Assembly: GCA_016209865.1 (NCBI GenBank)
Contig: JACQVL010000217.1
Location: forward strand, 1 to 21,338
Direction: 5' to 3'
Source: Candidatus Latescibacterota bacterium
GTDB taxonomy: Bacteria > JAAXHH01 > JACQVL01
Length of the DNA: 21,338 nucleotides
In this document: positions 4,485 to 21,154 of the stretch, piece by piece
How the letters are laid out: each line of letters opens with the position of its first letter
Numbering within the stretch: the first letter of the stretch is position 1
Position numbers and translations under genes: made by a program
The notes under the pieces: model-generated
Database searches by the model: none
Seen by the model: only the letters and a program-made list of their open reading frames with translations
Told to the model about the DNA's origin: nothing

Positions 4485-4507
4485 AGGGAGTGAGCTCCTC
4501 TCAGAGC

Positions 4508-4536
4508 AGTGACGAGTGATCAGTGACGAGTGACGA
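4508..4536. repeat. GTGACGA-type heptamer repeat (spacer A)
   Basis: Four imperfect units related to GTGACGA (GTGACGAGTGAT, GTGACGAGTGACGAGT) lie just upstream of the minus-strand epimerase-like gene. No facing inverted arm is seen on the other side of the adjacent palindrome, so this copy looks like a single arm. A small perfect stem TCAGAG/CTCTGA (4538-4543 and 4554-4559) follows it. The same heptamer family recurs at 8299-8406 and 18543-18696. Confidence 0.8.
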
Positions 4537-4563
4537 GTCAGAGCAAAAAATATCTCTGAGGTC

Positions 4564-4583
4564 ATTCCCGCGCAAGCGGGAAT
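4564..4583. repeat. dRS3-like 20-bp palindrome, copy 1
   Basis: The sequence is ATTCCCGCGCAAGCGGGAAT, flanked by GTC on the left and CCA on the right. It matches the ATTCCC-N8-GGGAAT plan of the Neisseria dRS3/NRS3 repeat, versions of which are scattered through many proteobacterial and related genomes. Two further perfect-arm copies and one degenerate copy lie in other spacers of this window. Confidence 0.85.
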
Positions 4584-4634
4584 CCAGTTTTCCATCCACA
4601 GAACGGCGGTCATCCTCGCCCGGCAGTTTTTTCC

Positions 4635-4663
4635 TTGAATCTTCCTCGACCATTGATTATACT
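4635..4663 (+). promoter_or_regulatory. Sigma70-type promoter for the PPP operon
   Basis: TTGAAT (4635-4640) and TATACT (4658-4663) are separated by exactly 17 bases, close to the TTGACA/TATAAT consensus, in a locally AT-rich part of the 311-bp gap between the divergent genes. A start near 4670 would leave a leader of about 125 bases before the FGGY kinase. Apart from the palindrome at 4706-4718 I see nothing definite in that leader. Confidence 0.6.
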
Positions 4664-4705
4664 CACACACAGAACGTCGCGGAACTCCCACAGTTTCGCC
4701 GCATG

Positions 4706-4718
4706 GCACGTGACGTGC
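4706..4718. promoter_or_regulatory. Palindrome GCACGTGACGTGC, possible operator
   Basis: This perfect 6+1+6 inverted repeat lies about 35-45 bases downstream of the predicted start of transcription at about 4670. Its position fits a repressor site or roadblock operator for the PPP operon. No regulator gene is visible in the window, so this is inference from position and symmetry. Confidence 0.35.
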
Positions 4719-4795
4719 GAGCCGCCTTCAGCGTCAGCAGCCCGGCCTGCTCTCCAATCGAGTCAGTACAACGGCCACGAAGTGTCTGAGCGTCG

Positions 4796-6277
4796 ATGAA
4801 CGCCGCATCCGCTGAACCCCCGTTCGTCCTGGCCCTGGACATCGGTACGTCGTCCGTCCGGACGATCGTGTTCGACCGGCTCGGCCAGCCGGCCGGGGCG
4901 CAGGCACAAGTGGCCTACGAGATGCGCACGACGCCGGACGGCGGGGTGGAGATCGACGCGGATCACCTCATCGGGATCGTTGGGCAGACTCTCGACGCTC
5001 TCTATGACCAGGCGTACCCGTCACTCTCGCACGTCATCGGCGTCGCTGTCTCAACGTTCTGGCACAACCTGATCGGCGTCGACGCCGACGGCCGGGCGGT
5101 CACCCCGTTGATCAGTTGGGCGGATACGCGCCCGGAGGCCGCCGTCCCCCGTCTGCGTGAGAGGCTCGACGAGGCCGCGACGCACGCCAGGACCGGCTGC
5201 GTGCTCCACGCCAGTTACCTGCCGGCTAAACTGCTCTGGCTGGCTCGCGCACACCCGGCGGCGTTCCGGCAGGCGGCGCGATGGATGTCGATCGGGGAAT
5301 ACCTGTTCCAGCGGTTCTTCGGCCGGTCGGTCTGCAGCCTCTCGATGGCGTCCGGGACCGGCCTGTTCAACCAGCACACGTGCACGTGGGATCGAGAGAC
5401 GATCCAGGCGCTCCCCATCGACCCGGACCAGCTTTCGCCCCTGACCGACCTTCAGACCCCGGTAGCGGGACTGGTGGATGAGTTCGCCCGCCGGTGGCCC
5501 GCGCTCCGGGACGTTCCCTGGTGGCCGGCGGTCGGGGACGGGGCGTGTAGCAACATCGGGAGTGGGTGTGTGTCGTCCGACCGGATCGCGCTGATGGTGG
5601 GCACGTCGGGCGCGATGCGGGTGCTGTGGCCGACCGAGACGTTTACCATCCCGCACGGCCTCTGGTGCTACCGGGCGGACCGCCGTCGGGTCGTGATGGG
5701 CGGAGCGCTGAGCAACGGTGGGAACGTCTACGAGTGGATGCGGGACACCCTCCGACTGAGGAGTCCGGACGAAGTCGAGCGCGACCTCGCCGCGATCGAG
5801 CCGGATACGCATGGGCTGACGGTGCTCCCGTTCTGGGCAGGGGAGCGAAGTCCCGGCTGGCACGGGTCGGCGCGAGCGACACTGACCGGGCTGAGCCTCC
5901 ACACGACCCCGCTCCACATCCTGCGGGCGGGACTGGAGGCGACGGCGTACTGCTTTGCGTTCATCCACCGGATCATCCAGACGGTCAGGCCGGAGGCTCG
6001 CACGATCATCGCCTCCGGCGGCGGTCTGCTGCACTCTCCGGTCTGGATGCGGATGATGGCAGACGTGTTAGGCCAGCCGGTGACCGCCTCCGCCGTCCCG
6101 GAAGCCTCCAGCCGTGGAGCTGCGTTGCTCGCCTTAGAGGCCGCCGGGGTGCTCACGGATCTGACGGAAGCCCCTGTTCCGTTAGGGATGCCCTATGCTC
6201 CCGACCCGGAACGGCACGAGCGGTATCGGGCGGCGATGGAGCGGCAGCAACGGTTGTATGATGTCTTAATCGGATAA
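4796..6277 (+). CDS. gntK: FGGY-family carbohydrate kinase, probable gluconokinase
   Basis: This 493-residue protein has the usual length and motif order of FGGY sugar kinases, which transfer phosphate from ATP to a sugar or sugar acid. The N-terminal phosphate-binding motif is LALDIGTSS (Asp15). GTSGAMRV (269-276), PFWAGERSPGW (about 345-355) and the C-terminal adenosine motif ASGGGLLHSPVW (Gly408-410) follow. The GTSGA-R-V and GERSPGW blocks resemble gluconokinases more than xylulokinases. Gluconokinase would feed 6-phosphogluconate directly to the downstream 6-phosphogluconate dehydrogenase; a xylulokinase would also fit a PPP operon and remains the main alternative. It is the first gene after the promoter at 4635-4663 and has no strong ribosome site (the ATG follows CTGAGCGTCG). 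Its stop codon overlaps the ribosome site of the first transketolase. Confidence 0.75.
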   Translation: MNAASAEPPFVLALDIGTSSVRTIVFDRLGQPAGAQAQVAYEMRTTPDGGVEIDADHLIGIVGQTLDALYDQAYPSLSHVIGVAVSTFWHNLIGVDADGRAVTPLISWADTRPEAAVPRLRERLDEAATHARTGCVLHASYLPAKLLWLARAHPAAFRQAARWMSIGEYLFQRFFGRSVCSLSMASGTGLFNQHTCTWDRETIQALPIDPDQLSPLTDLQTPVAGLVDEFARRWPALRDVPWWPAVGDGACSNIGSGCVSSDRIALMVGTSGAMRVLWPTETFTIPHGLWCYRADRRRVVMGGALSNGGNVYEWMRDTLRLRSPDEVERDLAAIEPDTHGLTVLPFWAGERSPGWHGSARATLTGLSLHTTPLHILRAGLEATAYCFAFIHRIIQTVRPEARTIIASGGGLLHSPVWMRMMADVLGQPVTASAVPEASSRGAALLALEAAGVLTDLTEAPVPLGMPYAPDPERHERYRAAMERQQRLYDVLIG

Positions 6278-6289
6278 GGAGGCGTCCCT

Positions 6290-8299
6290 TTGGCAGCGAC
6301 TTCCCTCGATACTCTCTGCATCAATACGATCCGTATGCTCTCCGTCGACGCGGTGCAGAAGGCCAATTCCGGCCATCCGGGCCTGCCGATGGAGGCGGCA
6401 CCCATGGCGCACCTCCTGTGGACGCGGTTCATGCGGTACAACCCGAAGAACCCCCTGTGGCCGGACCGCGACCGGTTCGTCCTGTCCGCCGGACACGGGT
6501 CGATGCTCCTGTACAGCATGCTCCACCTGACCGGCTACGACCTCCCCATGGACGAACTGAAGCGATTCCGGCAGTGGGGGAGCCGCACGCCCGGCCATCC
6601 GGAGTACGGCCTGGCCCCCGGCGTGGAGACGACGACCGGTCCCCTCGGCCAGGGTCTCGGCAACGCGGTCGGCATGGCGATGGCCGAAGCCCACTTAGCC
6701 GCCCGGTTCAACCGGCCCGGCGAAGCGATCGTCGACCACTGGACGTACGTCATCGCCAGCGACGGGGACATGATGGAGGGGGTGGCGTCCGAGGCGTGCT
6801 CATTAGCCGGACATCTCCGCTTAGGCAAGCTGATCGTGCTCTACACCGACAACCACATCACGATCGAAGGGGAAACGTCCCTCGCTTTCTCGGAAGACGT
6901 CGGCCGGCGGTTCGAGGGGTACGGCTGGCACGTCCAGCACGTGGCGGACGGGAACGACCTGGAGTCGCTCGACGCCGCCATCCGGGCCGCGCAGACCGCG
7001 GCCGGCCGGCCATCCCTCATCGTCTGCCGGACGATCATCGGGTACGGGAGTCCCAACAAGGCCGGGACGGCGGAAGTCCACGGCGCAGCGTTGGGCGAAC
7101 AGGAAGTTCTCCTGACGAAGCAGAACTTAGGCTGGCCGGTTGAACCGACATTCTACGTTCCGGACGAGGTGTACGCCCGCTTCCATGAGATGGCCGACCG
7201 GGGCCGGAAGCTGGAAGAGGCATGGCAGGCGAAATTCGGCGCATACGCGGCCGCTTACCCCGACCTGGCCCAGGAGTGGCGGCGAGGGCTCACTCGCGAA
7301 CTCCCGGCCGGGTGGAATGCCGAGATTCCGGTGTTCACGCCCGACAAAGGGGCGATCGCCACCCGCCAGGCGTCGGGCGAGGTGCTGAACGCCCTCGCGA
7401 AACGGGTGCCCAGCCTGATCGGCGGGTCGGCCGACCTCGCCCCGTCGACCAACACGTTGCTCAAGGGGTACGCCGACTTTGAAGCCGGGAGCTACGACGG
7501 CCGGAACCTCCACTTCGGCGTCCGGGAGCACGCGATGGGGGCGACCCTCAACGGCATGACCCTGCACGGCGGGGTGATCGCGTACGGGGCGACGTTCCTG
7601 ATCTTCTCCGACTACATGCGCCCGTCCATCCGATTAGCGGCGATCATGGAGATCACACCCATCTACGTCTTCACCCACGACAGCGTCGGCCTGGGCGAGG
7701 ACGGGCCGACCCATCAACCGATCGAGCACTACATGACGCTGCGAGCGATCCCGCACCTTGTTCTCATTCGTCCCGCCGATGCGACCGAGACGGCGGTCGC
7801 CTGGCAGGTGGCCTTAGAACACCGGGGCGGGCCGGTGGCCATCCTCCTCACCCGGCAGAAAGTCCCCATCCTCGACCGGACGGCCCTCGCTCCGGCGGAC
7901 GGCCTGCGGCGAGGCGCGTACGTCCTGGCGGAGGCGGAACACGGACGGTCGGACGCCATCCTGATCGCCACCGGCTCCGAGGTGCACGTCGCCTTAGCCG
8001 CTCGCAAGAAGCTCGCAGAGGATGGGGTGGCCGCCCGTGTGGTCAGTATGCCAAGCTGGGAGTTGTTCGACCGGCAACCCGTCGAATACCGCAACACCGT
8101 GCTCTCTCCGGACATCCCCGCCCGATTAGCGATCGAGACCGGCGTCTCTCAAGGGTGGGAACGCTACGTCGGCCCGCACGGGTCTGTGCTCGGCCTGAAT
8201 CGCTTCGGCGCGTCCGCGCCGGATAAAGTCATCATCGAGCAATTGGGGTTCACGGCGGAGAACGCGGCGGCGCGGGCGATGAAATTGGTGAAAAGATAG
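6290..8299 (+). CDS. tkt: Transketolase (first of two)
   Basis: This 669-residue thiamine-diphosphate enzyme moves two-carbon ketol units between pentose, tetrose and heptose phosphates in the non-oxidative PPP. Key features are His29 in [16 protein letters not shown], the ThDP/Mg motif SDGDMMEG with TDNHIT, the catalytic Glu413 in FGVREHAMG, the phosphate/substrate block [16 protein letters not shown], and ATGSEV near the C-terminus. The start is a TTG at 6290, chosen because AAGGAGG (6276-6282) lies 7 bases before it, overlapping the upstream stop, and because the protein aligns from its first residues with the second transketolase. Stop to next start is 127 bases, filled by a heptamer/palindrome spacer. 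The TAG stop donates its G to the left inverted arm. This gene has eight TTA codons, all followed by G. Confidence 0.95.
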
Positions 8300-8406
8300 T
8301 GACGAGTGACAAGTGACGAGTAAAACTAAGTAACCATTAATGGAATGTCATTCCCGCGCAAGCGGGAATCCATATCATTTCTTGCTCGTCACTTGTCACT
8401 CGTCAC
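8299..8406. repeat. Inverted heptamer spacer B with perfect 22-bp arms
   Basis: The left arm at 8299-8320 (units GTGACGA, GTGACAA, GTGACGA) is the exact reverse complement of the right arm at 8385-8406. The 64 bases between hold a dRS3-like palindrome (8350-8369). The left arm begins in the stop codon of the first transketolase, and the right arm ends 8 bases before the AAGGAGG of the second. The RNA could fold into a long hairpin between the two genes. Confidence 0.85.
8350..8369. repeat. dRS3-like 20-bp palindrome, copy 2
   Basis: ATTCCCGCGCAAGCGGGAAT, identical to the copy at 4564-4583 and again preceded by GTC and followed by CCA. It sits inside the loop of inverted spacer B. Confidence 0.85.
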
Positions 8407-8426
8407 TGCTCTTCAAGGAGGCTCGC

Positions 8427-10442
8427 ATGTCGAAGGCGCTCGACCAATTGTGCGTGAATACCATCCGGATGCTGGCGGTCGACTGCGTCCAGCAGGCGAA
8501 ATCGGGACACCCCGGCACGCCCATGGGCGCGGCGGATATGGCGTTCATCCTGTGGAATCGGTTTCTGAAACACAACCCGGCCAACCCCCGATGGGAGGAC
8601 CGCGACCGGTTCGTCCTCTCCCCCGGCCATGCGTGTGCGTTGCTCTACAGCCTCCTGCATCTGTACGGGTACGACCTGGCCCTGGACGACCTGAAGCGGT
8701 TCCGGCAGTGGGAGAGCAAATGCCCCGGCCACCCGGAGTACGGGGAGACGCCGGGCGTCGAGGTGACGACCGGGCCGCTCGGACAGGGGTTCGCCACGGC
8801 CGTCGGGATGGCGATGGCGGAGGCCCACGTAGCCGCGATCTTCAATCGGCCAGGCCACGAGATCGTCGATCATTCTACGTATGGCATCTGCGGAGATGGA
8901 GACCTGATGGAAGGCATCTCTGCCGAAGCCGCCTCCTTAGCCGGGTTCCTCGGTCTGGGCAAGTTGATCTTTTTTTATGACGACAACCGGATCTCGATCG
9001 AAGGAGGTACGCGAGACACCGCGTTCTCCGAGCAGGTCGAGGAGCGGTTCAACGCGTACGGCTGGCACGTCCAGGTCGTCCCCAACGGCCATGACTTCTT
9101 CTCCCTCGAATATGCGCTCCACCGGGCGCAGACAGAGTCCGGCCGGCCGTCGCTCATCATCTGCCGCACCCACATCGGGTACGGCAGCCCGGAGCAGGAC
9201 TCCGCGAAGGTCCACGGGGAGCCGTTCAAGGATGAGCACTACAAAGCGACGCGACGACACTACGGCTTCCCCGAGGATCAGCCGTTCTACATCCCGGATG
9301 AGGCGTTAGCGCATTTCCGGGAGGCGGTCGAACGGGGCAAGACGGCAGAATCGGCCTGGTGGGTGAAGTTCGAGCGGTACGCCCATGAGTACCCTGAGCT
9401 GGCCGAACGCTTCCGGCTCGTCATGAGCGGGGCGCTGCCCGAGCAGTGGGACGGTGAAGTCCCGTTGTTTACCCCGGAGAAAGACGGCCAGATGGCCACC
9501 CGCGACTGCTCTGGGAAGGTGCTCAACGCGTTGGCCAATCAACTAAAAGGGTATCTGGTCGGTGGGTCGGCGGATCTGGCGCCGTCGACGAAGACGTACA
9601 TGACCGGCCACGGGGATGTTCGCTTCCACGAGTTCGCGGGGGACAACATCCATTTCGGCGTTCGAGAGCACGCGATGGGGGCAGCGACGAACGGCCTGGC
9701 GCTGCACGGCGGGATCATCCCGTACTGCGCGACGTTCCTCCAGTTCTTCAACTACATGGCCCCGACCGTCCGCTTAGCCGCGTTGATGAAGCAGCGGGCG
9801 ATCTTCGTGTACACCCACGACAGCATCGGCCTGGGCGAGGATGGACCGACCCACCAGCCGATCGAGCACCTCGCCTGGCTGCGTTCGATGCCCAACGTCG
9901 TCTCCATCCGGCCGGCGGATGGGAATGAGACCGCCTGGGCGTGGCGGGTGGCCATCCAGCGTACGGACGGCCCAACGGTGCTGTGCTTCTCCCGCCAGAA
10001 GCTGCCGACACTCGACCAGACGAAGCATGCTTCGGCAGAAGGCGTGACGAAGGGGGCGTACGTCCTGTCCGACTGTGACGGGACTCCCGACATCATCCTG
10101 ATCGCCAATGGAGGGGAACTCCTGTTCGCGCTCGGCGCACAGGATCGGCTCAAAGGAGATGGAATCAAGGCTCGTGTGGTGAGCTTCCCGTCCTGGGAGT
10201 TGTTCGAGCAGCAGCCGCAGGAGTATAAGGAGGCCGTCTTGCCCCCGTCGGTCACGCGACGGTTGGGCATCGAGGCGGCCGGGCCGCTCGGCTGGGATCG
10301 CTACTTAGGACCGGTGAGCGGCAGAAATTTCATCGGTCTGTGGGGATTCGGCGCGTCCGCGCCCTATGAAGTGCTCGCGCAGAAATTCGGGTTCACGGTA
10401 GAGAACGTCGTGGCGAAAGCGAAGGCGCTGGTGAGGGGATAA
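8427..10442 (+). CDS. tkt: Transketolase (second, paralogous)
   Basis: This 671-residue transketolase is clearly related to its upstream neighbour throughout. It has His28 in [24 protein letters not shown] with DDNRIS, catalytic Glu414 in FGVREHAMG, and [16 protein letters not shown]. Thus the same residues needed for catalysis are present in both copies. It differs where most transketolases have ATGSEV, reading ANGGEL, and in several surface segments. The ATG at 8427 follows AAGGAGG at 8415-8421; a longer frame from 8340 would only translate the repeat spacer ([12 protein letters not shown]). It contains a run of eight T (8970-8977). It lies 18 bases before the transaldolase/isomerase fusion. 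Whether the two copies form separate homodimers, differ in substrate or are conditionally used cannot be told from sequence. Confidence 0.93.
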
Positions 10443-10460
10443 TCAGAAGGGAGTCACCGA

Positions 10461-13325
10461 ATGCCAAACCCGCTCGTCGAACTCCGTAAATACGGCCAGA
10501 GTCCCTGGTACGATAACATCCGGCGGGGACTGATCACGTCGGGCGACCTGCAGAAGATGATCGATGAAGACGGTCTGATGGGGGTGACGTCCAACCCGGC
10601 CATCTTCGAGAAAGCGATCGCGGGCAGCACCGACTACAACGAGGCGATGGAGGCCCTCGTCCGGCAGGGGAAGAACGCGCAGGAGATTTTCGAAGCCTTA
10701 GCCATCCAGGACATCCAGATGGCGGCGGACGTGATGATGCCCGTCTACCGCCGGACGGGCGGGCGTGACGGCTACGTCAGTCTGGAAGTCTCGCCGTACT
10801 TAGCGAACGACACACAGGGGACGATCGTCGAAGCCCGCCGGCTCTGGGCCGCCGTCCAGCGCGACAACGTGATGATCAAGGTGCCCGCCACCCCGGCCGG
10901 CATCCCCGTCATCCAGCAGTTGATCAGCGAAGGATTGAACATCAACGTCACCTTGATGTTCTCCATCCAGGTGTACGAAGCGGTGGCCAACGCGTACATC
11001 ACCGGCCTGGAAGCCCTCGCCGCGAAGGGCGGGGACGTCAGCCGGATCGCCAGCGTGGCGAGCTTCTTCATCAGCCGGATCGACACCCTCATCGACAGCA
11101 TCGCCCAGGAGCGGCTGAAGACTGCCACCCGCCCTCGGGAACGGACGGAACTGCAGGGCATCATCGGGAAAGTCGCGATCGCCAACGCAAAGATCACCTA
11201 CCAGCGGTACCAGGAACTGTTCTCCTCCGGCCGGTGGAACGCGCTTGCCGCCCGCGGAGCCAGGACGCAGCGGCTTCTGTGGGCGAGCACGAGCACGAAG
11301 AACCCGAATTATCGCGACGTGATCTACGTGGAGGAACTCATCGGGCAGGAGACGGTCGACACTATCCCGGCCGCCACGTGGACGGCGTTCCGGGATCACG
11401 GCCGGCCACGCCCCAGCCTGGAATCGGGCGTGGACGAGGCGCGGGAGACGATGGGGATGCTCGAGTCGGCGGGCATCTCCATGACCGAGGTGTCGGCGAA
11501 ATTGCTCGACGACGGGGTGAAGCTGTTCGCCGACGCGTTCGATAAGCTGTTGAGCGCGACCGAACAGAAGCGGGAAGCGCTGTTGGGCGGGACGCTCGAC
11601 CGGCAGGTGTCTGCCATTGGCAGCTACGAAGAGGCTGTCAAGAAGACCTTAGAGGAGTGGCGCGCAGCGGGCAAAATCCGCCGGCTGTGGAACGCAGACG
11701 CCAGCCTGTGGACGGGCACGGACGAGAGCCAGTGGCTCGGCTGGCTGCACATCACCGAGCAGCAGCTCGAACACGCGAATCACCTCATCCGGATCGCCGA
11801 GGAGGTCAAGCAGGCCGGGTTCAAGAGTGCCCTCCTGCTCGGCATGGGCGGCAGCAGCCTCTGTCCCGAGGTGATGAAGCTGACGTTCGGGACGATCGAC
11901 GGCTACCCGGAACTCCACGTCCTCGATTCGACCGTCCCCGCGCAGGTCAAGGCGTTCGAGAAGAAGGTGAAGCTGTCCAACACCCTGTTCATCGTCGCCA
12001 GCAAGTCGGGGGGCACGACCGAACCGAACGTCTTCCGGAACTACTTTTTCGACAAAGTCCAGCGCCGGTTGGGGAAGAAGAAAGCCGGGCAGCACTTCAT
12101 CGCCATCACCGACCCGGGGTCGAGGGTGGAGATCGACGCGAAGGAACGCGGCTTCCGGCACGTCTGCGCGGGCGTGCCGTCGATCGGCGGCCGGTACTCC
12201 GCCCTGTCGGACTTCGGGATGGTGCCCGCCGCCATCATGGGGGTGGATGTCGTCACCCTGCTCGAACGGGCGGAGCGGATGGCGCAGAGCTGCGCCGCCT
12301 GCGTGCCGCCGGAGGAGAATCCGGGGGTTGTGCTCGGGGTGATCCTGGGTGAGCTGGCCAAAGCCGGACGGGATAAGGTGACGATCGTGACCTCGCCTGG
12401 CATCGGAGATTTGGGGGCGTGGCTGGAACAGCTCTTGGCGGAGAGCACCGGGAAAGAAGGGAAAGGCTTGATCCCGGTCGACAACGAGCCGCTCGGCCCG
12501 CCCGATGTGTACGGCCAGGACCGGCTGTTCGCCTACGTCCGCCTGGCCTCCGGTCCCGACCCCGGCCAGGATGCGGCCATCAGCGCCTTAGGGCTCGCCG
12601 GCCATCCCGTCGTGCGGATCGCGGTCGCCGACCCGATCGACATCGGGGAAGAATTCTTCCGGTGGGAGATCGCTACCGCCGTCGCTGGCGCCGTCCTGGG
12701 CATCAACGCGTTCAACCAGCCGAACGTGCAGGAGAGCAAGGATTACACGAAGAGCCTGACGGACGAGTACGAGAAGACGGGCCGCCTGCCGCCAGAAATG
12801 CCCATCCTGGAAGCGGACGGCATCACGCTCTTCACCGATGTAGCGAATGCCGCTGCGCTCGGTGCGGCCGTGCCTGGTACGGGCTTTCCGATGGGGTCTC
12901 TCGAATCCTACCTGGCCGCGCACCTGAACCGACTCACCTCTGGTGACTACTTCGCGCTGACCGCGTACATCGAGATGAACGCGGCGCACCAGGAGGCGCT
13001 CCAGACCATCCGGCTCCGCATCCGCGACACGAAACGCGTGGCGACGACGCTGGGGTACGGTCCCCGCTTCCTCCACTCGACCGGCCAGTTGCACAAGGGC
13101 GGCCCGAACACCGGGGTGTTCATCCAGATCACGTCGGACGACGCCTCGGACGTGCCGATTCCGGGCAAGACGTTCACGTTCGGCGTGCTGAAAGCCGCAC
13201 AATCGATGGGCGATTTTCTGTCCCTGAGCAAACGCAACCGCCGCGTCCTCCGCGTCCACCTGCCGGCTGACGTCCCGGCCGGACTGGCGCGGCTGCGACA
13301 GGCGGTTGAAAAAGCAACGACATAA
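10461..13325 (+). CDS. tal-pgi: Bifunctional transaldolase / glucose-6-phosphate isomerase
   Basis: This 954-residue fusion combines two enzymes of sugar phosphate exchange. Residues 1 to about 370 are transaldolase: TSNPAIF (43-49) and the Schiff-base Lys140 in VMIKVPATPAGIP, then the WASTSTKNP segment. From about 375 the protein is a phosphoglucose isomerase with SIS folds: GMGGSSLCPEV (about 461), SKSGGTTEPN (about 513-522), GGRYSALSDFG (about 575), and the C-terminal block STGQLHKGGPNTG (about 872-884) with a conserved Lys. Natural fusions of this kind are known in several bacterial lineages and let fructose-6-P made by transaldolase pass to glucose-6-P. The ATG at 10461 has GAAGGGAG 6 bases upstream. 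The next gene is 167 bases away, across an AGGACGA-type repeat spacer. Confidence 0.95.
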   Translation: MPNPLVELRKYGQSPWYDNIRRGLITSGDLQKMIDEDGLMGVTSNPAIFEKAIAGSTDYNEAMEALVRQGKNAQEIFEALAIQDIQMAADVMMPVYRRTGGRDGYVSLEVSPYLANDTQGTIVEARRLWAAVQRDNVMIKVPATPAGIPVIQQLISEGLNINVTLMFSIQVYEAVANAYITGLEALAAKGGDVSRIASVASFFISRIDTLIDSIAQERLKTATRPRERTELQGIIGKVAIANAKITYQRYQELFSSGRWNALAARGARTQRLLWASTSTKNPNYRDVIYVEELIGQETVDTIPAATWTAFRDHGRPRPSLESGVDEARETMGMLESAGISMTEVSAKLLDDGVKLFADAFDKLLSATEQKREALLGGTLDRQVSAIGSYEEAVKKTLEEWRAAGKIRRLWNADASLWTGTDESQWLGWLHITEQQLEHANHLIRIAEEVKQAGFKSALLLGMGGSSLCPEVMKLTFGTIDGYPELHVLDSTVPAQVKAFEKKVKLSNTLFIVASKSGGTTEPNVFRNYFFDKVQRRLGKKKAGQHFIAITDPGSRVEIDAKERGFRHVCAGVPSIGGRYSALSDFGMVPAAIMGVDVVTLLERAERMAQSCAACVPPEENPGVVLGVILGELAKAGRDKVTIVTSPGIGDLGAWLEQLLAESTGKEGKGLIPVDNEPLGPPDVYGQDRLFAYVRLASGPDPGQDAAISALGLAGHPVVRIAVADPIDIGEEFFRWEIATAVAGAVLGINAFNQPNVQESKDYTKSLTDEYEKTGRLPPEMPILEADGITLFTDVANAAALGAAVPGTGFPMGSLESYLAAHLNRLTSGDYFALTAYIEMNAAHQEALQTIRLRIRDTKRVATTLGYGPRFLHSTGQLHKGGPNTGVFIQITSDDASDVPIPGKTFTFGVLKAAQSMGDFLSLSKRNRRVLRVHLPADVPAGLARLRQAVEKATT

Positions 13326-13476
13326 GGACGAAAAAGCAAGGACGAAGGCCAAAGGACGAAAGGGATGGGTTTCTGTTTGCGCGGGCATGATAAACAAGCG
13401 TCATGCATTGTTTTTCGTCCTTCGTCCTTCATACTTCGTCCTTCATACTTACTTTGTCCTTTATCCTTCGTCCTTA
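13324..13476. repeat. Inverted heptamer spacer C (AGGACGA type)
   Basis: The left arm (13324-13364) carries AGGACGA-like units and the right arm (13413-13476) the complementary TCGTCCT-like units, several of them tandem. A perfect 11-bp inverted match is AAGGACGAAGG (13338-13348) with CCTTCGTCCTT (13419-13429). The middle holds a degenerate dRS3-like palindrome at 13368-13390. The left arm starts in the stop codon of the fusion gene. The right arm ends just before the GGGAGG of the next gene. Confidence 0.8.
13368..13390 (-). repeat. Degenerate dRS3-like palindrome, copy 4
   Basis: GGTTTCTGTTTGCGCGGGCA plus TGA aligns with the reverse complement of the intact copies (GGATTCCCGCTTGCGCGGGA then ATGA), with a few substitutions and one missing base in the left half. 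It lies between the two heptamer arms of spacer C, the same place occupied by intact copies in spacers B and E. Assignment rests on this similarity and position. Confidence 0.5.
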
Positions 13477-13492
13477 CAAAGGGAGGTTCCAC

Positions 13493-14458: not shown

Positions 14459-14462
14459 AAGA

Positions 14463-14585
14463 ATTTTGGATTGGAGATTTTGGATTTTGGATTAGAGAAA
14501 AGGATAAACCGGATTTTGGATGGCCGGTTTTGGATGGTGAATTGTTCCTCACAAATCTAAAATCCAAAATCCAAAATCCAAAATC
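14463..14585. repeat. Inverted heptamer spacer D (TTTTGGA type)
   Basis: TTTTGGA units fill the left part (14463-14494) and the centre (14512-14537), and TCCAAAA units the right arm (14553-14585). An 18-bp perfect inverted match pairs 14476-14493 with 14568-14585. No dRS3-like core is seen here. The following ATG (14601) has only a weak AAAGGG in front of it. Confidence 0.85.
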
Positions 14586-14600
14586 GAAAGGGTTTTTCCT

Positions 14601-16151
14601 ATGCCTCCAGCAGCAACCAAGACGATAGATGTCCACGCTGGGCTGCGCGATGTCTCGGCGGCGCAGCGCGCCGGGTCGTGCGTCATGACCATCTTCGGCG
14701 GCGCGGGCGACCTGGCTAAACGCAAGATCGTTCCCGCCATGTATAACGCCGCGCGAGAAGGGCTGACCCCACCCGGGTTCACGATCGTCGGGACCGGCCG
14801 GGGAGAGATGAGCCACGATCAGTACCGCGACCTGATGCGGGATTCCATCCGGGAGTTTGTGGCGCACGTCGATGAGGACACGCTGCGCGATTTCCTCGCC
14901 GGACTGTACTGGGTGGGCGGCGACTTCGGCGACCCGGCGCTCTATGTCACACTCGAAGGTCTCATTCAGCAGTGCAGCGAGGAGCGGACGAAGTGCGATA
15001 ACCGCATGTACTACCTGTCCACCCCGCCGAGCGTGTTCGTCCCGATCGTCCAGCAGCTCGGCGCGCACAACATGGCGCGGGTGTCCGGCTCGCACCACTG
15101 GCGGCGCATCATCATCGAAAAGCCGTTCGGCCGTGACCTGGAGTCCGCGAAGACGCTGAACCGGGAGATCGGGGCGGTGTTCGAAGAATGGCAGGTCTAC
15201 CGGATCGACCATTACTTGGGCAAGGAGACCGTCCAGAACATCACCGCCCTCCGGTTTGCGAACGGCATCTTCGAGCCGCTGTGGAACCGCAACTACATCA
15301 ACCACGTGCAGATCACCGCGGCGGAGAGCATCGGAGTGGAGGGACGGGGTGGGTACTACGAAGAATCGGGCGCCCTGCGCGACATGGTGCAAAATCACCT
15401 GCTCCAGGTGCTGACCTTAGTGGCCATCGAGCCGCCGAGCACGTTCGACGCGAACGCGGTGCGGGATGAGAAGGCCAAGGTCTTACGGGCGATGCGGCCG
15501 TACGGGCCGGAGGATGTCGACCGGTGCTTCGTGCGCGCGCAGTATGACGACGGTCTGATTCAGGGCAAGCCGGTCATCGGCTACCGCAAAGAAGACGGGG
15601 TCTCCCCGACGTCGATGACTGAGACGTTCGTCGCCGCTCAATTCTTCGTCGATAACTGGCGATGGGCCGACGTGCCGTTCTACATCCGCACCGGCAAACG
15701 CCTGCCGAAACGGGTGAGCGAGGTGGCCATCTTCTTCAAACGCACCCCGCATCTGATGTTCCGCCGGATGATGTCGGATGAGGTCGCCCCGAACGTCCTC
15801 GCCCTGCAAATCCAGCCGGATGAGAGCATCGCCATGCAGTTCGAGGCGAAATTCCCGGGCCCGCAGATGGAGTTGCGGTCGGTCAAGATGAACTTCCAGT
15901 ATAAAGAGGCGTTCCAGGTGGAGACGGCGGAGGCATACGAGCGACTGATCCTCGACTGCCTGCGCGGGGATGCCACCCTCTTCATGAGACGGGACGCGGT
16001 CGAAGTCGGCTGGTGGCTGGTCATGCCTGTCCTGGAACGCTGGCAGAACCAGCAGACCTCCAGCATCCCGGCGTACCCGTCGGGGTCGTGGGGGCCGAAA
16101 GAATCGGAAGATTTGCTCGCCCGTGACGGCCGCTTGTGGCGAACACCGTGA
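14601..16151 (+). CDS. zwf: Glucose-6-phosphate 1-dehydrogenase
   Basis: This 516-residue enzyme oxidises glucose-6-phosphate to 6-phosphogluconolactone with NAD(P), the first step of the oxidative PPP. The coenzyme motif is FGGAGDLAKRK (32-42), slightly unlike the common GASGDLAKRK. IIEKPFGRDL precedes the active-site signature RIDHYLGKE (Arg201-Glu209), which includes the substrate-binding Lys and the catalytic-region His. Further blocks are FEPLWNRNYINHVQIT, PFYIRTGKRLPKR and the C-terminal YERLILDCLRGD. The first 28 residues precede the conserved core; a shorter start at Met29 is possible. The leader is the heptamer spacer with only a weak AAAGGG 7 bases upstream, so translation may be modest or coupled. 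Downstream, a 147-base spacer separates it from the lactonase gene. Confidence 0.95.
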   Translation: MPPAATKTIDVHAGLRDVSAAQRAGSCVMTIFGGAGDLAKRKIVPAMYNAAREGLTPPGFTIVGTGRGEMSHDQYRDLMRDSIREFVAHVDEDTLRDFLAGLYWVGGDFGDPALYVTLEGLIQQCSEERTKCDNRMYYLSTPPSVFVPIVQQLGAHNMARVSGSHHWRRIIIEKPFGRDLESAKTLNREIGAVFEEWQVYRIDHYLGKETVQNITALRFANGIFEPLWNRNYINHVQITAAESIGVEGRGGYYEESGALRDMVQNHLLQVLTLVAIEPPSTFDANAVRDEKAKVLRAMRPYGPEDVDRCFVRAQYDDGLIQGKPVIGYRKEDGVSPTSMTETFVAAQFFVDNWRWADVPFYIRTGKRLPKRVSEVAIFFKRTPHLMFRRMMSDEVAPNVLALQIQPDESIAMQFEAKFPGPQMELRSVKMNFQYKEAFQVETAEAYERLILDCLRGDATLFMRRDAVEVGWWLVMPVLERWQNQQTSSIPAYPSGSWGPKESEDLLARDGRLWRTP

Positions 16152-16280
16152 TTTTGGATTTTAGATTTTGGATTTTGGATTAAAGAGGAGTCACGATAAA
16201 GAAGGGATTTCACGTCTCATGTGAGACAGAGTATGCCCGGTGTGTCATTCCCGCGCGAGCGGGAATCCAAAATCCAAAAT
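16150..16280. repeat. Inverted heptamer spacer E (TTTTGGA type)
   Basis: The left arm (16150-16182) contains tandem TTTTGGA units and begins in the stop codon of zwf. The right arm (16264-16280) contains TCCAAAA units. A perfect 17-bp inverted match pairs 16165-16181 with 16264-16280. The right arm merges with the end of the dRS3-like palindrome at 16247-16266, sharing AAT. A small stem GTCTCA/TGAGAC lies at 16214-16227. The AGAGGAG in this spacer is not followed by a usable start. Confidence 0.85.
16247..16266. repeat. dRS3-like 20-bp palindrome, copy 3
   Basis: ATTCCCGCGCGAGCGGGAAT, one base different from copies 1 and 2 in the loop, again preceded by GTC and followed by CCA. Its last bases form part of the right heptamer arm of spacer E. 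Confidence 0.85.
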
Positions 16281-16298
16281 GAAGCATCGGAGGGGCGC

Positions 16299-17042: not shown

Positions 17043-17053
17043 GAGGGCTCGTC

Positions 17054-17722
17054 ATGATCCGCTTAGCGCCTTCCATCCTCTCCGCCGACTTTGCCCGCTT
17101 GGGTGAGCAGGTCAAGACGATCGAGCAGGCCGGGGCTGACCGCGTCCATATCGACGTGATGGACGGGCATTTCGTCCCGAACATCAGCATGGGGCCGGTC
17201 GTCGTCCAGTCCCTCCGGCCAGTGACCTTGCTTCCCCTTGAAGTCCACCTGATGATCGATGCCCCGGAACGGTACATCGACGCGTTCGTGAAGGCCGGGG
17301 CGGACACGGTGATCGTCCATCAGGAGAACGTCCCCCATCTCCACCGGATCGTCCAGCAGATCAAGGGCCTGGGCACACGGGCGGGCGTCGCCCTCAACCC
17401 GGCGACGCCAGTGAGCACGCTCGACGTGATCCTCGATGACCTCGACCTGGTGCTCGTCATGACGGTCAACCCGGGCTTCTCCGGCCAGGCGTTCATCCCG
17501 GCCACCCTCTCGAAGATGCGACAAGTGCGCGCCCTCCTGAACGAACGGGGCCTCCGGTGTGACGTGGAAGTCGACGGCGGGATCACGACCGAGACCGCCC
17601 CCCAGGCTGTCGAGGCGGGCGCCGACGTCCTGGTCGCCGCTTCCGCGATTTTCGGCCACCCCGAAGGGATCGCCGCCGCCATGCGCCAACTCCGCGAGTG
17701 CGTGGCTCCTCTCCCAGGATGA
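17054..17722 (+). CDS. rpe: Ribulose-phosphate 3-epimerase
   Basis: This 222-residue TIM-barrel enzyme interconverts ribulose-5-P and xylulose-5-P, joining the oxidative branch to the transketolases. Visible motifs are LAPSILSADFARLG (Ser7), the metal-binding HIDVMDGHFVPN (His32, Asp34), EVHLMI (His65), the MTVNPGFSGQAFIP phosphate loop and EVDGGI with the second catalytic Asp. The length is normal. The ATG at 17054 has AGGAGGG ending about 6 bases upstream, starting in the stop region of pgl. It is the last PPP gene in the run. No ribose-5-phosphate isomerase follows; instead there is a 347-base gap with regulatory features of the next gene. I see no clear intrinsic terminator directly after the stop. 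Confidence 0.95.
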   Translation: MIRLAPSILSADFARLGEQVKTIEQAGADRVHIDVMDGHFVPNISMGPVVVQSLRPVTLLPLEVHLMIDAPERYIDAFVKAGADTVIVHQENVPHLHRIVQQIKGLGTRAGVALNPATPVSTLDVILDDLDLVLVMTVNPGFSGQAFIPATLSKMRQVRALLNERGLRCDVEVDGGITTETAPQAVEAGADVLVAASAIFGHPEGIAAAMRQLRECVAPLPG

Positions 17723-17728
17723 GAGTCG

Positions 17729-17742
17729 GCACTCCGCACTCC
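17729..17742. repeat. Two tandem GCACTCC heptamers
   Basis: GCACTCCGCACTCC followed by AAAATC, just after the rpe stop. It is a minimal representative of the heptamer-repeat theme of the other spacers, using a different unit. No inverted arm is visible. Confidence 0.5.
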
Positions 17743-17770
17743 AAAATCATCCCTCCCTCTCCCTTCCGCT

Positions 17771-17836
17771 CGACAAAATGTCACCGTCCAGCCGCTTGAA
17801 ATTCCTCAGTTTTGACAAAATGTCATCGTTCATCCG
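17771..17836 (+). promoter_or_regulatory. Paired enhancer-like palindromes TGACAAAATGTCA
   Basis: CGACAAAATGTCA (17771-17783) and TGACAAAATGTCA (17813-17825) are 42 bases apart, four turns of helix, so they face the same side. The similarity continues 11 bases further (CCGTCCAGCCG against TCGTTCATCCG). They lie about 140-190 bases upstream of the sigma54-type promoter at 17956-17971, where activators of sigma54 usually bind. The activator is not identified. Confidence 0.55.
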
Positions 17837-17955
17837 GCAACCCATCGTTTCGATGAGACGATCTGTCCGTGTGCGGGAGGTTTGAGGGCGTGCCGTCTTC
17901 CTCGAAGAGATAATAACATCATGACAGGCATTACGTTATGGAGCGGAACGTCGCG

Positions 17956-17971
17956 TGGTATGGTTTTTGCT
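17956..17971 (+). promoter_or_regulatory. Sigma54-type (-24/-12) promoter
   Basis: TGGTATGGTTTTTGCT matches the sigma54 plan TGGCACG-N4-TTGCW, with the invariant GG (17957-17958) and GC (17969-17970) exactly 10 bases apart. Transcription would begin near 17982, leaving a leader of about 88 bases before the universal stress protein start at 18070. A GTGATCAC palindrome (17985-17992) and a TCACTGT direct repeat (17971-17977, 17989-17995) overlap the start region. I see no small gene in this gap. Confidence 0.55.
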
Positions 17972-18069
17972 CACTGTAAGGGGCGTGATCACTGTCCGTA
18001 CGTGAAGCCGGTCATCCCGGTGCAAGGCCCGCCCTGAACACAGGAAGGGACGCAGAGGAGGCACACACG

Positions 18070-18537
18070 ATGGCCATACAACTCAAACGGCTCTTATGTC
18101 CGACGGATTTCTCGGAACCCTCCGAACACGCGTTGACGTACGCGATCTCGCTCGCCCAGCAATACGGCGCGGTGCTGTACCTCCTGCACGTGATCGAGCC
18201 GCTGACGCCTGTTCCGGGCATCGAGATGGGACCGGTACTGATGTACGATGAGCGGCCGGACCTCCTCCAGCGGGTGCATGAGTTGCTCGATGAGATGGTG
18301 CCGGAGGATGTCAAAGCTAAGATCGAGATCAAGCCGCTCATCCGCCGGGGCGCTCCGTTCTTGGAGATCATCCGGACGGCGCGGGAAGAGGAGATCGACC
18401 TGATCATCATCGCCACGCACGGTCGGACCGGGTTGAGCCACGTGCTGCTGGGCAGCACTGCCGAGAAGGTCGTCCGGAAAGCCCCGTGCCCGGTGCTGAC
18501 GATCCGACATCCTGAGCATGAGTTCGTGATGCCATAA
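18070..18537 (+). CDS. Universal stress protein (UspA family)
   Basis: This 155-residue protein is a single USP domain. It opens with LKRLLCPTDFSEPSEHAL, a typical first strand with Asp13, then YLLHVIEP, and ends with the nucleotide-binding stretch IIATHGRTGLSHVLLGSTAEKV. The latter fits the G-x9-G-S/T part of the ATP-binding motif of the ATP-binding class, though the preceding Gly of G-x2-G-x9-G is Ala. Such proteins bind ATP or act as stress effectors in the cytoplasm, and their exact function is seldom predictable. The ATG follows GAGGAGG at 18055-18061 with 8 bases between. The sigma54-type promoter and paired palindromes upstream suggest activator-dependent induction. The next gene, a metal ATPase, follows after 159 bases of heptamer spacer and may be co-transcribed. 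Confidence 0.93.
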   Translation: MAIQLKRLLCPTDFSEPSEHALTYAISLAQQYGAVLYLLHVIEPLTPVPGIEMGPVLMYDERPDLLQRVHELLDEMVPEDVKAKIEIKPLIRRGAPFLEIIRTAREEEIDLIIIATHGRTGLSHVLLGSTAEKVVRKAPCPVLTIRHPEHEFVMP

Positions 18538-18542
18538 AAGGC

Positions 18543-18696
18543 AGTGACGAGTGGCGAGTGACAAGTGACAAGTGAAAACCGGTCAGAGCGGATGGTCAGG
18601 GTGACTGATTTAAGGCATGCTCTTCCTGCCACACGTGACCTTCGCTTCTCACTCTACTTGTCCTCGCTTTTACTCGTCACTTGTCACTCGTCACTT
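18543..18696. repeat. Inverted heptamer spacer F (GTGACGA type)
   Basis: GTGACGA/GTGACAA units (18543-18574) face TCGTCAC/TTGTCAC units (about 18654-18696). A perfect 13-bp inverted match is CGAGTGACAAGTG (18555-18567) with CACTTGTCACTCG (18678-18690). The right arm runs straight into the ATG of the ATPase gene and leaves no purine-rich ribosome site. No dRS3-like core is visible in the middle. Confidence 0.8.
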
Positions 18697-21009
18697 ATGC
18701 AGACAGTGGAACTGCCCTATACACCCCCGGAGGAACCCCACGGGCGACGGTGTGCCGACCTCTTAGTCGACATCTTGAGTACGTACCGCGGGATCGCCGG
18801 GATTGCGGTCGATGAGGCGACGTCCGTCCTCACCCTCCGGTACGATCCAGCGTTGATCTCCCTCGAAAAAGTCGAGCAGGTCGCCCGTCAAGTAGGGATC
18901 AAGCTCCGGGACCGGTTCGGCCGGTGTACGATCCGGCTCACCGGGCTGAACTGCCAGGACTGCGCCCGGACGGTCGAACGCGGCCTGGCCCGGGTCGACG
19001 GGGTGCCCTGGGCGACGGTGAACTTCGCCGCCTCTGTCCTGCGCGTGGAGTACCGGGAGCAGAGCGGGACGCTCGCCGAGATCGAACGGCGGCTCGACCA
19101 GCTCGGCTACGCTGCGGGGGAGGATGATCTCCGGCACGCCTGGCGGCGGCACGCGATGGCCCTCCTGACCGGGTTCGCCGGGGCGTGCCTGCTTCTTGGC
19201 TGGGGACTGGAATTTGTCCCGTCCATTCCGTCGTCCGCCCGGTTGATCGCGTACCTCCTCGCTTCCCTGACGGGCGGCTACTACGGGCTTCGCAACTCCG
19301 TCGCGGCGCTCCGCGCCTGGAACATCGACATCAACCTGCTGATGGTCGTCGCCGCGGTCGGGGCGACTGTGATCGGCCGGCCCCAGGAGGGCGCGGTGCT
19401 GCTCTTCTTGTTCTCGCTCAGCAACACCCTGGAGACGTATGCGATGGGACGAACCCACCGGGCGATCCGGGGGTTGATGGACTTGAGCCCGCCGGAGGCG
19501 CTCGTCCGGCGGGACGACCAGCCCGTCCGGTTGCCCGTCGCCCAGGTCGAGCCAGAGGATGTCGTCATCGTGAAGCCGGGGGAACGGATCCCCGTCGACG
19601 GCCGGGTGATCGCCGGAGAATCGAGCGCGGATCAGTCCGCCATCACCGGCGAGTCCGTCCCGGTCACCAAGCGGCCGGGCGATTCCGTCTATGCCGGGAC
19701 GATGAACCTGAGGGGGACGGTGGATGTCTTCGTCACTGCCCGATCCCAGGAGACGACGCTCGCGCGGGTGATCGCGTTAGTCGAGGAGGCGCAGAGTCAG
19801 AAAGCGCCCACACAACAGTTCACGGAATGGATCGGACAGTATTACACGATCGGGGTGCTGAGCATGGCCGTCCTGGTGTTCGTCATCCCGACCGTGTTCT
19901 TCGGCCGGGCGTCCGACCGGATGCTCTACCGTGCGATGACCCTTTTAGTCGTCGCCTCGCCGTGTGCACTCATCATCTCCACCCCGGCCGCCGTCCTCTC
20001 CGCCTTAGCCAACGGCGCGCGACGTGGCATCCTGTTCAAGGGCGGCGCCTACCTGGAAGGCCTGGCGAAGGTCCGGGCGGTCGCGTTCGATAAGACGGGG
20101 ACGCTCACGGCCGGCCGGTTGCACGTCACCGGCGTCGTGCCAGCGGACGGAGTGCCCCAGGACGAGGTCCTGCGCACGGCCGCCGCCGTCGAATCCGGGT
20201 CGGAGCATCCGATCGCGGCCGCCATCGTCGCGGCGGCTCACACGCACGGCCTCCATCCCTCCGTCGTGGCGTCGTTCCAGGCGATCACCGGCCAGGGGGC
20301 ACAGGGACTGATCGACGGCCAGATGGTCAGAGTCGGTAAACCGGAGTGGGTCGGCCAGTTCGTCGAGGTTCCGGCCGAGATGCGACAGCAGGTGGAGACG
20401 CTGGCCGCTCAAGGACGGACGACAGTCCTGGTCGGGGGGGATCGGCTGCTCGGTCTGTTGGCGGTCAGCGACATCCCGCGTCCGGCCGCGCACGGGCTGG
20501 CCGCCGCTCTGCACCGGCTCGGCGTCGAGTCGGTCGTGATGCTGACCGGCGACCATCCGGCCGTGGCTCGTACCATCGGTGCCCAACTCGGCCTCGACGA
20601 GGTGCGGGCGGGACTGCTTCCTCACGAAAAGGTGCAGGTGGTCCGGGAATTGCTAGGAAAATATGACGGGGTGGCGATGATCGGGGATGGAGTGAACGAT
20701 GCCCCGGCGTTAGCTGCCGCGACCGTCGGGATCGCGATGGGGGTGGGTGGGACGAACGTCGCCCTGGACACGTCGGACGTGGTGTTGATGGGGGATGACC
20801 TGGCCCAGCTTCCGATCGCCTTCGCGTTGAGCCGGCGCGCGTCGCGGATCATCCGGCAGAACCTCATCTTCGCCGTCGCGGTCATCATCACGCTGATCAT
20901 CTCGACCCTCATCGGACGGCTCTCCCTGCCAGTCGGGGTGATCGGCCATGAAGGGAGTACGCTCCTGGTCGTGCTCAACGGCCTCCGGCTGTTGGGCGGA
21001 ACGAGGTGA
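18697..21009 (+). CDS. Heavy-metal-transporting P1B-type ATPase
   Basis: This 770-residue membrane pump would export transition-metal ions using ATP. The N-terminus has two HMA-like regions: one lacking cysteines (about 15-68), and one with the metal motif GLNCQDC (Cys86, Cys89). About eight membrane segments follow. Catalytic motifs are TGES (317-320), the metal-site SPC in TM6 (421-423), the phosphorylated Asp465 in DKTGTLTAG, His504-Pro505 in SEHP, and GDGVND (663-668). The last membrane segment reads HEGST (751-755) in GHEGSTLLVVLNGLRLL. SPC with HEGST is the signature of subgroup P1B-4 (Co/Zn/Fe-type), whereas an HMA with CxxC and the fuller membrane plan is more usual for Cu or Zn/Cd pumps. 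The ATG at 18697 is the first that avoids repeat DNA; no Shine-Dalgarno is present. Confidence 0.92.
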   Translation: MQTVELPYTPPEEPHGRRCADLLVDILSTYRGIAGIAVDEATSVLTLRYDPALISLEKVEQVARQVGIKLRDRFGRCTIRLTGLNCQDCARTVERGLARVDGVPWATVNFAASVLRVEYREQSGTLAEIERRLDQLGYAAGEDDLRHAWRRHAMALLTGFAGACLLLGWGLEFVPSIPSSARLIAYLLASLTGGYYGLRNSVAALRAWNIDINLLMVVAAVGATVIGRPQEGAVLLFLFSLSNTLETYAMGRTHRAIRGLMDLSPPEALVRRDDQPVRLPVAQVEPEDVVIVKPGERIPVDGRVIAGESSADQSAITGESVPVTKRPGDSVYAGTMNLRGTVDVFVTARSQETTLARVIALVEEAQSQKAPTQQFTEWIGQYYTIGVLSMAVLVFVIPTVFFGRASDRMLYRAMTLLVVASPCALIISTPAAVLSALANGARRGILFKGGAYLEGLAKVRAVAFDKTGTLTAGRLHVTGVVPADGVPQDEVLRTAAAVESGSEHPIAAAIVAAAHTHGLHPSVVASFQAITGQGAQGLIDGQMVRVGKPEWVGQFVEVPAEMRQQVETLAAQGRTTVLVGGDRLLGLLAVSDIPRPAAHGLAAALHRLGVESVVMLTGDHPAVARTIGAQLGLDEVRAGLLPHEKVQVVRELLGKYDGVAMIGDGVNDAPALAAATVGIAMGVGGTNVALDTSDVVLMGDDLAQLPIAFALSRRASRIIRQNLIFAVAVIITLIISTLIGRLSLPVGVIGHEGSTLLVVLNGLRLLGGTR

Positions 21010-21012
21010 CCC

Positions 21013-21049
21013 AGAGTGAAGAATGAAGAGTGAAGAGTGAAAAGAAAGG
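21013..21049. repeat. GTGAAGA-type heptamer repeat (spacer G, left)
   Basis: About four units related to AGAGTGA/AGAATGA lie directly after the stop of the ATPase gene. The expected complementary TCTTCAC arm is absent; instead a different heptamer array follows at 21101-21142. Confidence 0.75.
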
Positions 21050-21100
21050 ATCTATACACAGGTGGATGAAGCGGGTGCTCGTCACTGGTTACTGTCCTTT

Positions 21101-21142
21101 ACCGACCACCGACCACTGATCACCGACCACCGACTCCCGACC
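21101..21142. repeat. ACCGACC-type heptamer repeat (spacer G, right)
   Basis: Six degenerate units (ACCGACC ACCGACC ACTGATC and so on) lie just upstream of the ribosome site of the sigma factor gene. The unit differs from the left array in this spacer, so the two do not pair. Confidence 0.75.
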
Positions 21143-21154
21143 GAGGTGGATTCT

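Follow-up and report, generated by a model that had tools for sequence, protein, structure and literature searches.

Facing heptamer arrays of several families occupy intercistronic gaps of a Latescibacterota genome with a fixed strand polarity

Why should the gaps between co-directional genes of one bacterium carry short tandem repeats that face each other, with a repeat unit that changes from gap to gap? This question is raised by the window analyzed here, the 21,338-nt contig JACQVL010000217.1 of Candidatus Latescibacterota bacterium (assembly GCA_016209865.1), which is contig 170 of a 3.75-Mb metagenome-assembled genome (356 contigs, 83% complete, GC content 0.63). An earlier note on this DNA had reported 7-bp repeats in nearly every gap and five gaps in which the arrays form facing arms with perfect inverted matches. 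Repeats of this kind have been on record for decades, to our knowledge with no accepted explanation. Short tandemly repeated repetitive sequences (STRRs) and small dispersed repeats of cyanobacteria, reportedly described by Mazel in 1990 and Elhai in 2008, are said to be intergenic tandem heptamers with small palindromes embedded; we know of no description of a unit-independent facing layout or of a polarity rule for cyanobacterial STRRs.

All five perfect inverted matches were recovered in the window exactly as reported (Table 1). When mismatches are allowed, four of these pairs lengthen to 26-39 nt, and the pair in gap 16152-16298 remains at 17. Among inverted repeats less than 400 bp apart in the window, ranks 1-16 by length all fall within the five gaps, and five of the six array gaps fold as RNA at z scores of -3.8 to -11.3. 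The arrays of the sixth gap (21010-21154) belong to two non-complementary families, and their G-rich polarity is convergent. Facing arms were sought in gaps 4485-4795 and 17723-18069 and none were found, so that "nearly every gap" was a slight overstatement for the window. The pattern itself is genome-wide, with a sharp peak at period 7 in intergenic DNA that genes do not show.

This was established from samples of the same genome, which cover 574 kb for array lags, 595 kb for arm pairing and 790 kb for anatomy and placement, with genes called by a simple codon-model script written for this analysis. The contig blocks were picked with the genome-wide list of matches to GTGACGAGTGACNAGTGACNAG already known, and most later stretches hold GTGACGA matches; the 790-kb counts are therefore mildly biased. 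Lag 7 gave 58 strict tandem arrays and lag 14 gave 50, whereas other lags yielded 2-5 and shuffled sequence 2; the lag-7 self-match was 0.32-0.34 in gaps of 30-300 bp versus 0.257 in genes. The arrays have the features of STRRs, namely 7-bp tandem units in three or more copies and an intergenic position. A unit-blind search found 181 arrays in 59 kb of gaps versus 19 in 695 kb of genes, the GTGAC family was counted 90 times in gaps versus 3 in genes, and GTGACGAGTGACNAGTGACNAG has 239 exact matches in the 3.75 Mb (reversed control, 0). The two halves of a gap pair in inverted sense, at a score of 12 or more, in 25.4% of 169 gaps of 70-300 bp, versus 0% of shuffled gaps, 1.8% in the direct sense and 2.6% when the halves come from different gaps. 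Inverted pairing is thus in strong excess and genes are nearly free of arrays, contrary to the outcomes that the earlier note had named as speaking against an organized system.

In the 790 kb, facing arms were observed in 66 of 280 gaps of 60-400 bp, distributed as 61/232 co-directional, 5/18 convergent and 0/30 divergent gaps (Fisher p 0.0004). The medians for co-directional gaps are 6 nt from the stop codon to the arm, 60 nt for the loop and 17 nt from the arm to the start, which bears out the placement between the upstream stop and the next ribosome site first noticed in the window. Sequence outside the arms has a median of 24.5 nt, and array-free co-directional gaps of up to 60 bp have a median of 18 nt. 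Where GTGAC arrays lie at gene ends, the stop codon comes from the array in 23 of 46 cases; the stop is the TGA of a GTGACGA array in L031, L039, L043, L044, L047, L150, L167, L180 and L182, so that the last residues of the predicted proteins are encoded by the array. A clear heptamer unit is seen in 35 arms, and others have 8- or 9-bp units (CGTTnnAA, CACAAAG) or no unit (GGGCGAAGCATTCGC). Separately, a second class of palindrome with steps of 8-9 bp, TTCACCACAAAGACACAAAGAGCACAAAG ... CTTTGTGTCTTTGTGGTGAA, was noticed in several unlinked gaps.

At least nine unrelated unit sequences show this one layout. Both outermost arms belong to the same family in 48 of 52 gaps, where 10 are expected. 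When members of one family are compared, two arms from a single gap are no more alike than two from separate gaps (permutation p 0.82-0.92), and no arm-to-arm co-variation was found inside families, so the pair is set by family and not by private copying or compensatory change. The loops are mostly unrelated, with nested short repeats, a 27-mer resembling repetitive extragenic palindromic (REP) sequences and three loop pairs as exceptions; related loops occur in the distant gaps L036 and L158 (85% over 55 bp). Families nest inside one another, and the REP-like palindrome (TGTCATTCCCGCGnAAGCGGGAATCCA / ATTCCCGCGnnAGCGGGAATC) has 115 exact core matches genome-wide; it occurs in either orientation and frequently within the loops of heptamer elements.

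The arrays also follow a rule of orientation, in which the G-rich strands converge. With nine families, named and oriented by hand, the strand order was '+-' in 52 gaps and '-+' in none. A unit-blind version based on the sign of G minus C gave 35 '+-' versus 1 '-+' among two-array gaps of the own genome and agreed in 15 of 15 cases elsewhere (Microcystis 7:0, Planktothrix 1:0, G055 2:0, other cyanobacteria 3:0, other named loci 2:0). G outnumbers C in every one of the 35 heptameric left arms of the own genome, and the G/C skew is +0.21/-0.19 in array gaps versus +0.04/-0.01 in array-free gaps. Convergent gaps keep the polarity too (19 versus 2), and the REP-like palindrome does not obey it (10 for, 20 against). 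The polarity might have its origin in the likeness to a ribosome site that a G-rich arm would have if it directly preceded a start; the persistence of the polarity in convergent gaps weakens this idea unless polarity is fixed per family. A possible exception outside the own genome was seen at locus L244 (1501-1600) of genome G259, a GATTTTG-type facing pair with the C-rich arm first.

Orthologous junctions carry different elements or none. In glucose-6-phosphate dehydrogenase (G6PDH), identity is only 54-56% to the closest named relatives and 73-75% to G011 and G013, two genomes that belong to the same order. The zwf-pgl junction is 147 bp in the window versus 9 bp in G011, and the junction between 6-phosphogluconate dehydrogenase (6PGDH) and zwf has an AAGG-type facing array in G013 where the window carries GATTTTG. 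In cyanobacteria, facing heptamer arrays extend from stop to start at the zwf-opcA junction, with units that differ by lineage: CAGT-type in two Microcystis and Planktothrix, and TCATTGG-type in one Leptolyngbyaceae; a second Leptolyngbyaceae has another repeat there. Array length at this junction differs between the two Microcystis, and four further cyanobacteria have no array there. GATTTTN arrays with the same internal variants were detected in 16 of 288 genomes and GTGACNA arrays in 7 of 288, scattered over the domain with mostly one or two per family. The control with the reversed pattern was almost always zero but matched a few genomes. Some of these arrays are facing in G055 and G274, with the same polarity as in the own genome. 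Facing heptamer pairs were far rarer in the stretches that were sampled from Planktothrix, Microcystis, G055 and G044, which makes the own genome an extreme case.

The many shared sites, the excess of facing arms, the family-matched arms, the polarity, the nesting, the ordinary size of the leftover sequence, the variable orthologous junctions, the few shared loops and the recurrence of units in unrelated genomes support a model in which the arrays belong to several families of palindromic, non-coding spacer elements dispersed in the genome. By analogy they would resemble REPINs (REP doublets forming hairpins) or bacterial interspersed mosaic elements (BIMEs) and fold as intercistronic RNA hairpins; we judge the chances that this is right to be about even. 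Each element end is a short tandem 7-bp array, and the two ends are inverted with G-rich strands inward around a loop of 30-90 nt. The element would insert as one unit into a short intercistronic gap, with both arms of one family, and a trans-acting mobiliser would presumably move it. Its ends would stay close to the family consensus because they are the copied part, while loops would drift, nest other elements or gain REP palindromes. Slippage may alter the number of units, and single arrays may be remnants of paired elements. In the mRNA, the predicted hairpin would start at the upstream stop codon and leave the next ribosome site free, so that the element could be tolerated between cistrons, and it may stabilise the upstream cistron.

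Several observations count against this model. No target-site duplication or precise empty site could be demonstrated among the orthologues compared, which share only ~65-75% protein identity, and mostly unrelated loops are not expected from recent whole-element transposition. The Y1 transposase family of IS200 and the REP-associated tyrosine transposases, RAYTs (PF01797), was not found in the 83%-complete own assembly, five control genomes being positive, and a reverse transcriptase (PF00078) was not found in the same assembly, from which ~17% of the genome is missing. Gaps with arrays on a single strand (43 '+' and 35 '-') exceed the 52 paired gaps, and the REPIN analogy leaves the constant 7-bp step of unrelated units unexplained. 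Thus, of the mobile or self-copying spacer proposed in the earlier note, the shared families, the nesting, the variable junctions and the ordinary size of the leftover sequence hold up, but no boundary, target duplication or enzyme could be demonstrated and the loops are mostly not carried. Copies of miniature inverted-repeat transposable elements (MITEs) have the whole element including the loop in common, which does not hold here, where only three loop pairs are related besides the REP 27-mer and other short nested repeats. Shared loops were likewise dropped as proof of whole-element transposition, such sharing being mostly absent.

An origin in situ seems rather unlikely to us, although it would explain why the 7-bp step is constant across unrelated units: polymerase slippage with 7 nt as the favoured step, an idea put forward for long simple sequence repeats, would grow the arrays, and template switching at a hairpin would copy the inverted arm. 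The commonest long simple sequence repeats of many bacteria are heptamers (Mrazek et al. 2007, cited after PMC4679880), and array length does vary between Microcystis strains. However, one unit recurs at hundreds of unlinked sites and the same units occur in unrelated genomes, arm-to-arm copying predicts a same-gap likeness that is absent beyond family (p about 0.9), and the pairs are almost solely G-rich-convergent. A further reading is that hairpins have been selected for mRNA stability or for insulation of the next cistron, with recurrence and polarity reflecting that selection. The polarity would then keep Shine-Dalgarno-like purines scarce ahead of starts, where the C-rich arm lies, with the G-rich arm following stops. 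The extent of the arms, which begin at the stop codon and end shortly ahead of the ribosome site, the strong predicted folds and the lack of paired arms in divergent gaps all agree with this, and the RNA hairpin suggested in the earlier note is compatible with the folds. We nevertheless consider an RNA-level function unlikely as the explanation, since array presence and unit vary at the orthologous junctions of relatives, the polarity is kept in convergent gaps where no start codon is involved, and intrinsic terminators show no excess in the window. Moreover, the two arms of a gap are unmatched beyond their family, which leaves selection for exact pairing unsupported.

Binding of the arrays by a nucleoid protein or a global regulator is suggested by tandem units with one variable base, which resemble multi-site binding, and has precedents in the paired heptanucleotides of Geobacter metallireducens (PMC2700814) and the TAACTGA repeats of Beggiatoaceae (PMC4679880). 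By this analogy the arrays would be regulatory, which we regard as very improbable given that at least nine unrelated units share one layout and that a tie to promoters is absent, divergent gaps having no paired arms. There is also a small chance that one process, active in several phyla, adds or copies 7-bp units of any sequence at or near both edges of intercistronic gaps with fixed polarity and spreads particular units between unrelated lineages. If so, facing arrays would be the footprint of a single unrecognised process, with the G-rich strand directed inward from the edge of the gene.

Among known systems, a close parallel is provided by the GGGAATC and GGGGA(C/T)T heptamers of Xanthomonas and Nostoc, which are mostly intergenic, near the upstream gene and rare between divergent genes; Xanthomonas has 70-75 convergent (inverted) pairs per genome, whose length varies by species and whose pair type is kept (Rehm et al. 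2015, PMC4692102). The Xanthomonas pairs are, like the present ones, heptameric, intergenic, convergent and scarce in divergent gaps. The Xanthomonas and Nostoc repeats, however, form a single unit family in each genome and were read as G-quadruplexes, whereas at least nine families occur here, with arms of one family and pairs that reach from the stop codon to the ribosome site. The present arrays fall outside the G-quadruplex heptamer class, which has runs of three or more G per unit, as no G-triplet occurs in GTGACGA, GATTTTG or AAGGACG, the main units. The TAACTGA repeats of Beggiatoaceae, cyanobacteria and Bacteroidetes are intergenic, end at start codons and are patchy, with horizontal spread suspected (MacGregor 2015, PMC4679880). 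They are described as direct, with only one inverted repeat in the focal genome, whereas facing pairs are a main arrangement here and are also found at the zwf-opcA junctions of Microcystis and Planktothrix. The 'class 3 global regulator sites' of G. metallireducens consist of five tandem heptanucleotides, mostly paired and drawn as a loop (PMC2700814); they comprise one unit family at 16 sites that were read as regulator sites, and are likened here by description only. REPINs, which are associated with RAYTs, are small palindromes outside genes whose two inverted ends are conserved, and they occur as singlets and doublets (Bertels and Rainey 2011, PMC3116915). The present elements share with them two inverted conserved ends, a short spacer, an extragenic position and many copies. 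REPIN ends, however, are REPs of 16-25 bp, often tagged by GTAG/CGTC, whereas here they are tandem heptamers in whose consensus units this tag was not seen, and REPIN genomes carry RAYTs.

Heptamer STRRs and convergent heptamer pairs are therefore already known (PMC4692102, PMC4679880, PMC2700814), and the earlier suggestion that the inverted arrangement is less described stands only in part. No earlier description was found of a unit-independent, family-matched, polarity-fixed, stop-to-ribosome-site layout across many families of one genome. With it, "scattered simple repeats" give way to a definite architecture with testable rules that any account of origin has to meet: one-family arms, G-rich convergence, a stop-to-ribosome-site span, no divergent pairs, interchangeable arms and private loops. 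In addition, since identical units occur in unrelated genomes, horizontal spread can be tested directly.

Table 1. Coordinates of the arrays and palindromes (window positions unless a locus is named)
Feature	Position	Context	Perfect reverse-complementary arms	RNA fold and remarks
Single CAGTGAC(GAGTGAT) array, + strand	4507..4538	Followed by REP-like palindrome at about 4560-4586		Facing arm absent
Facing GTGAC(G/A)A arrays	8298..8407; arms 8298-8323 / 8382-8407	Between two transketolase genes	GTGACGAGTGACAAGTGACGAG, 8299-8320/8385-8406	-63.6 kcal/mol, z -11.3
REP-like 27-mer	About 8346-8372	In loop of 8298..8407 element		
Facing AAGGACG arrays	13323..13475	Between transaldolase/phosphoglucose isomerase fusion and 6PGDH genes	AAGGACGAAGG, 13338-13348/13419-13429	z -5.5; left array overlaps upstream stop codon (TAAGGACG)
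Facing GATTTTG arrays	14463..14589	Between 6PGDH gene and zwf (G6PDH)	GATTTTGGATTTTGGATT, 14476-14493/14568-14585	z -3.8
Facing GATTTTG arrays	16150..16280	Between zwf and 6-phosphogluconolactonase gene	ATTTTGGATTTTGGATT, 16165-16181/16264-16280	z -4.2; left array overlaps stop codon (TGATTTTGG); right arm fused to REP-like palindrome
Facing GTGACGA arrays	18543..18695	Between UspA-like and heavy-metal ATPase genes	CGAGTGACAAGTG, 18555-18567/18678-18690	z -5.4
Two families in one gap	21013..21142 (gap 21010-21154)	GAAGAGT 21013-21041 left; GTGGTCG-type 21101-21142, - strand, right		z +0.6; no significant hairpin
REP-like palindrome ATTCCCGCGnnAGCGGGAATC	4564-4584; 8350-8370; 16247-16267	Window		
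Second palindrome class	L186 13723-13851; L148 283-383; L203 1058-1171; L194 14435-14549; L190 6116-6232	Unlinked gaps		
Cyanobacterial zwf-opcA array junctions	L066 9468-9572; L071 9468-9748; L086 9465-9659; L075 6666-6807	Stop to start		

The co-directional genes of the window encode an FGGY kinase, two transketolases, a transaldolase/phosphoglucose isomerase fusion, 6PGDH, G6PDH, 6-phosphogluconolactonase, an epimerase, a UspA-like protein and a heavy-metal ATPase. Names were assigned by Pfam, except that G6PDH was recognized by homology to relatives, the second transketolase was named from its sequence, and the epimerase and UspA-like protein were identified by inspection. An Rfam scan of the window gave no match. 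The fused transaldolase and phosphoglucose isomerase (10461-13325) are split in G013, where a facing array, GGTGGGCA ... TGCCCACG, lies between the two parts (L187 9555-10313). At 3045-3807, in an AT-richer stretch, a nucleotidyltransferase (MNT, PF01909) gene is paired with a HEPN (PF05168) gene in a typical toxin-antitoxin layout. Finally, the dyad GACAAAATGTC occurs twice, at 17772-17782 and 17814-17824, in the 347-bp gap 5' of the UspA-like gene, and is a possible operator pair.

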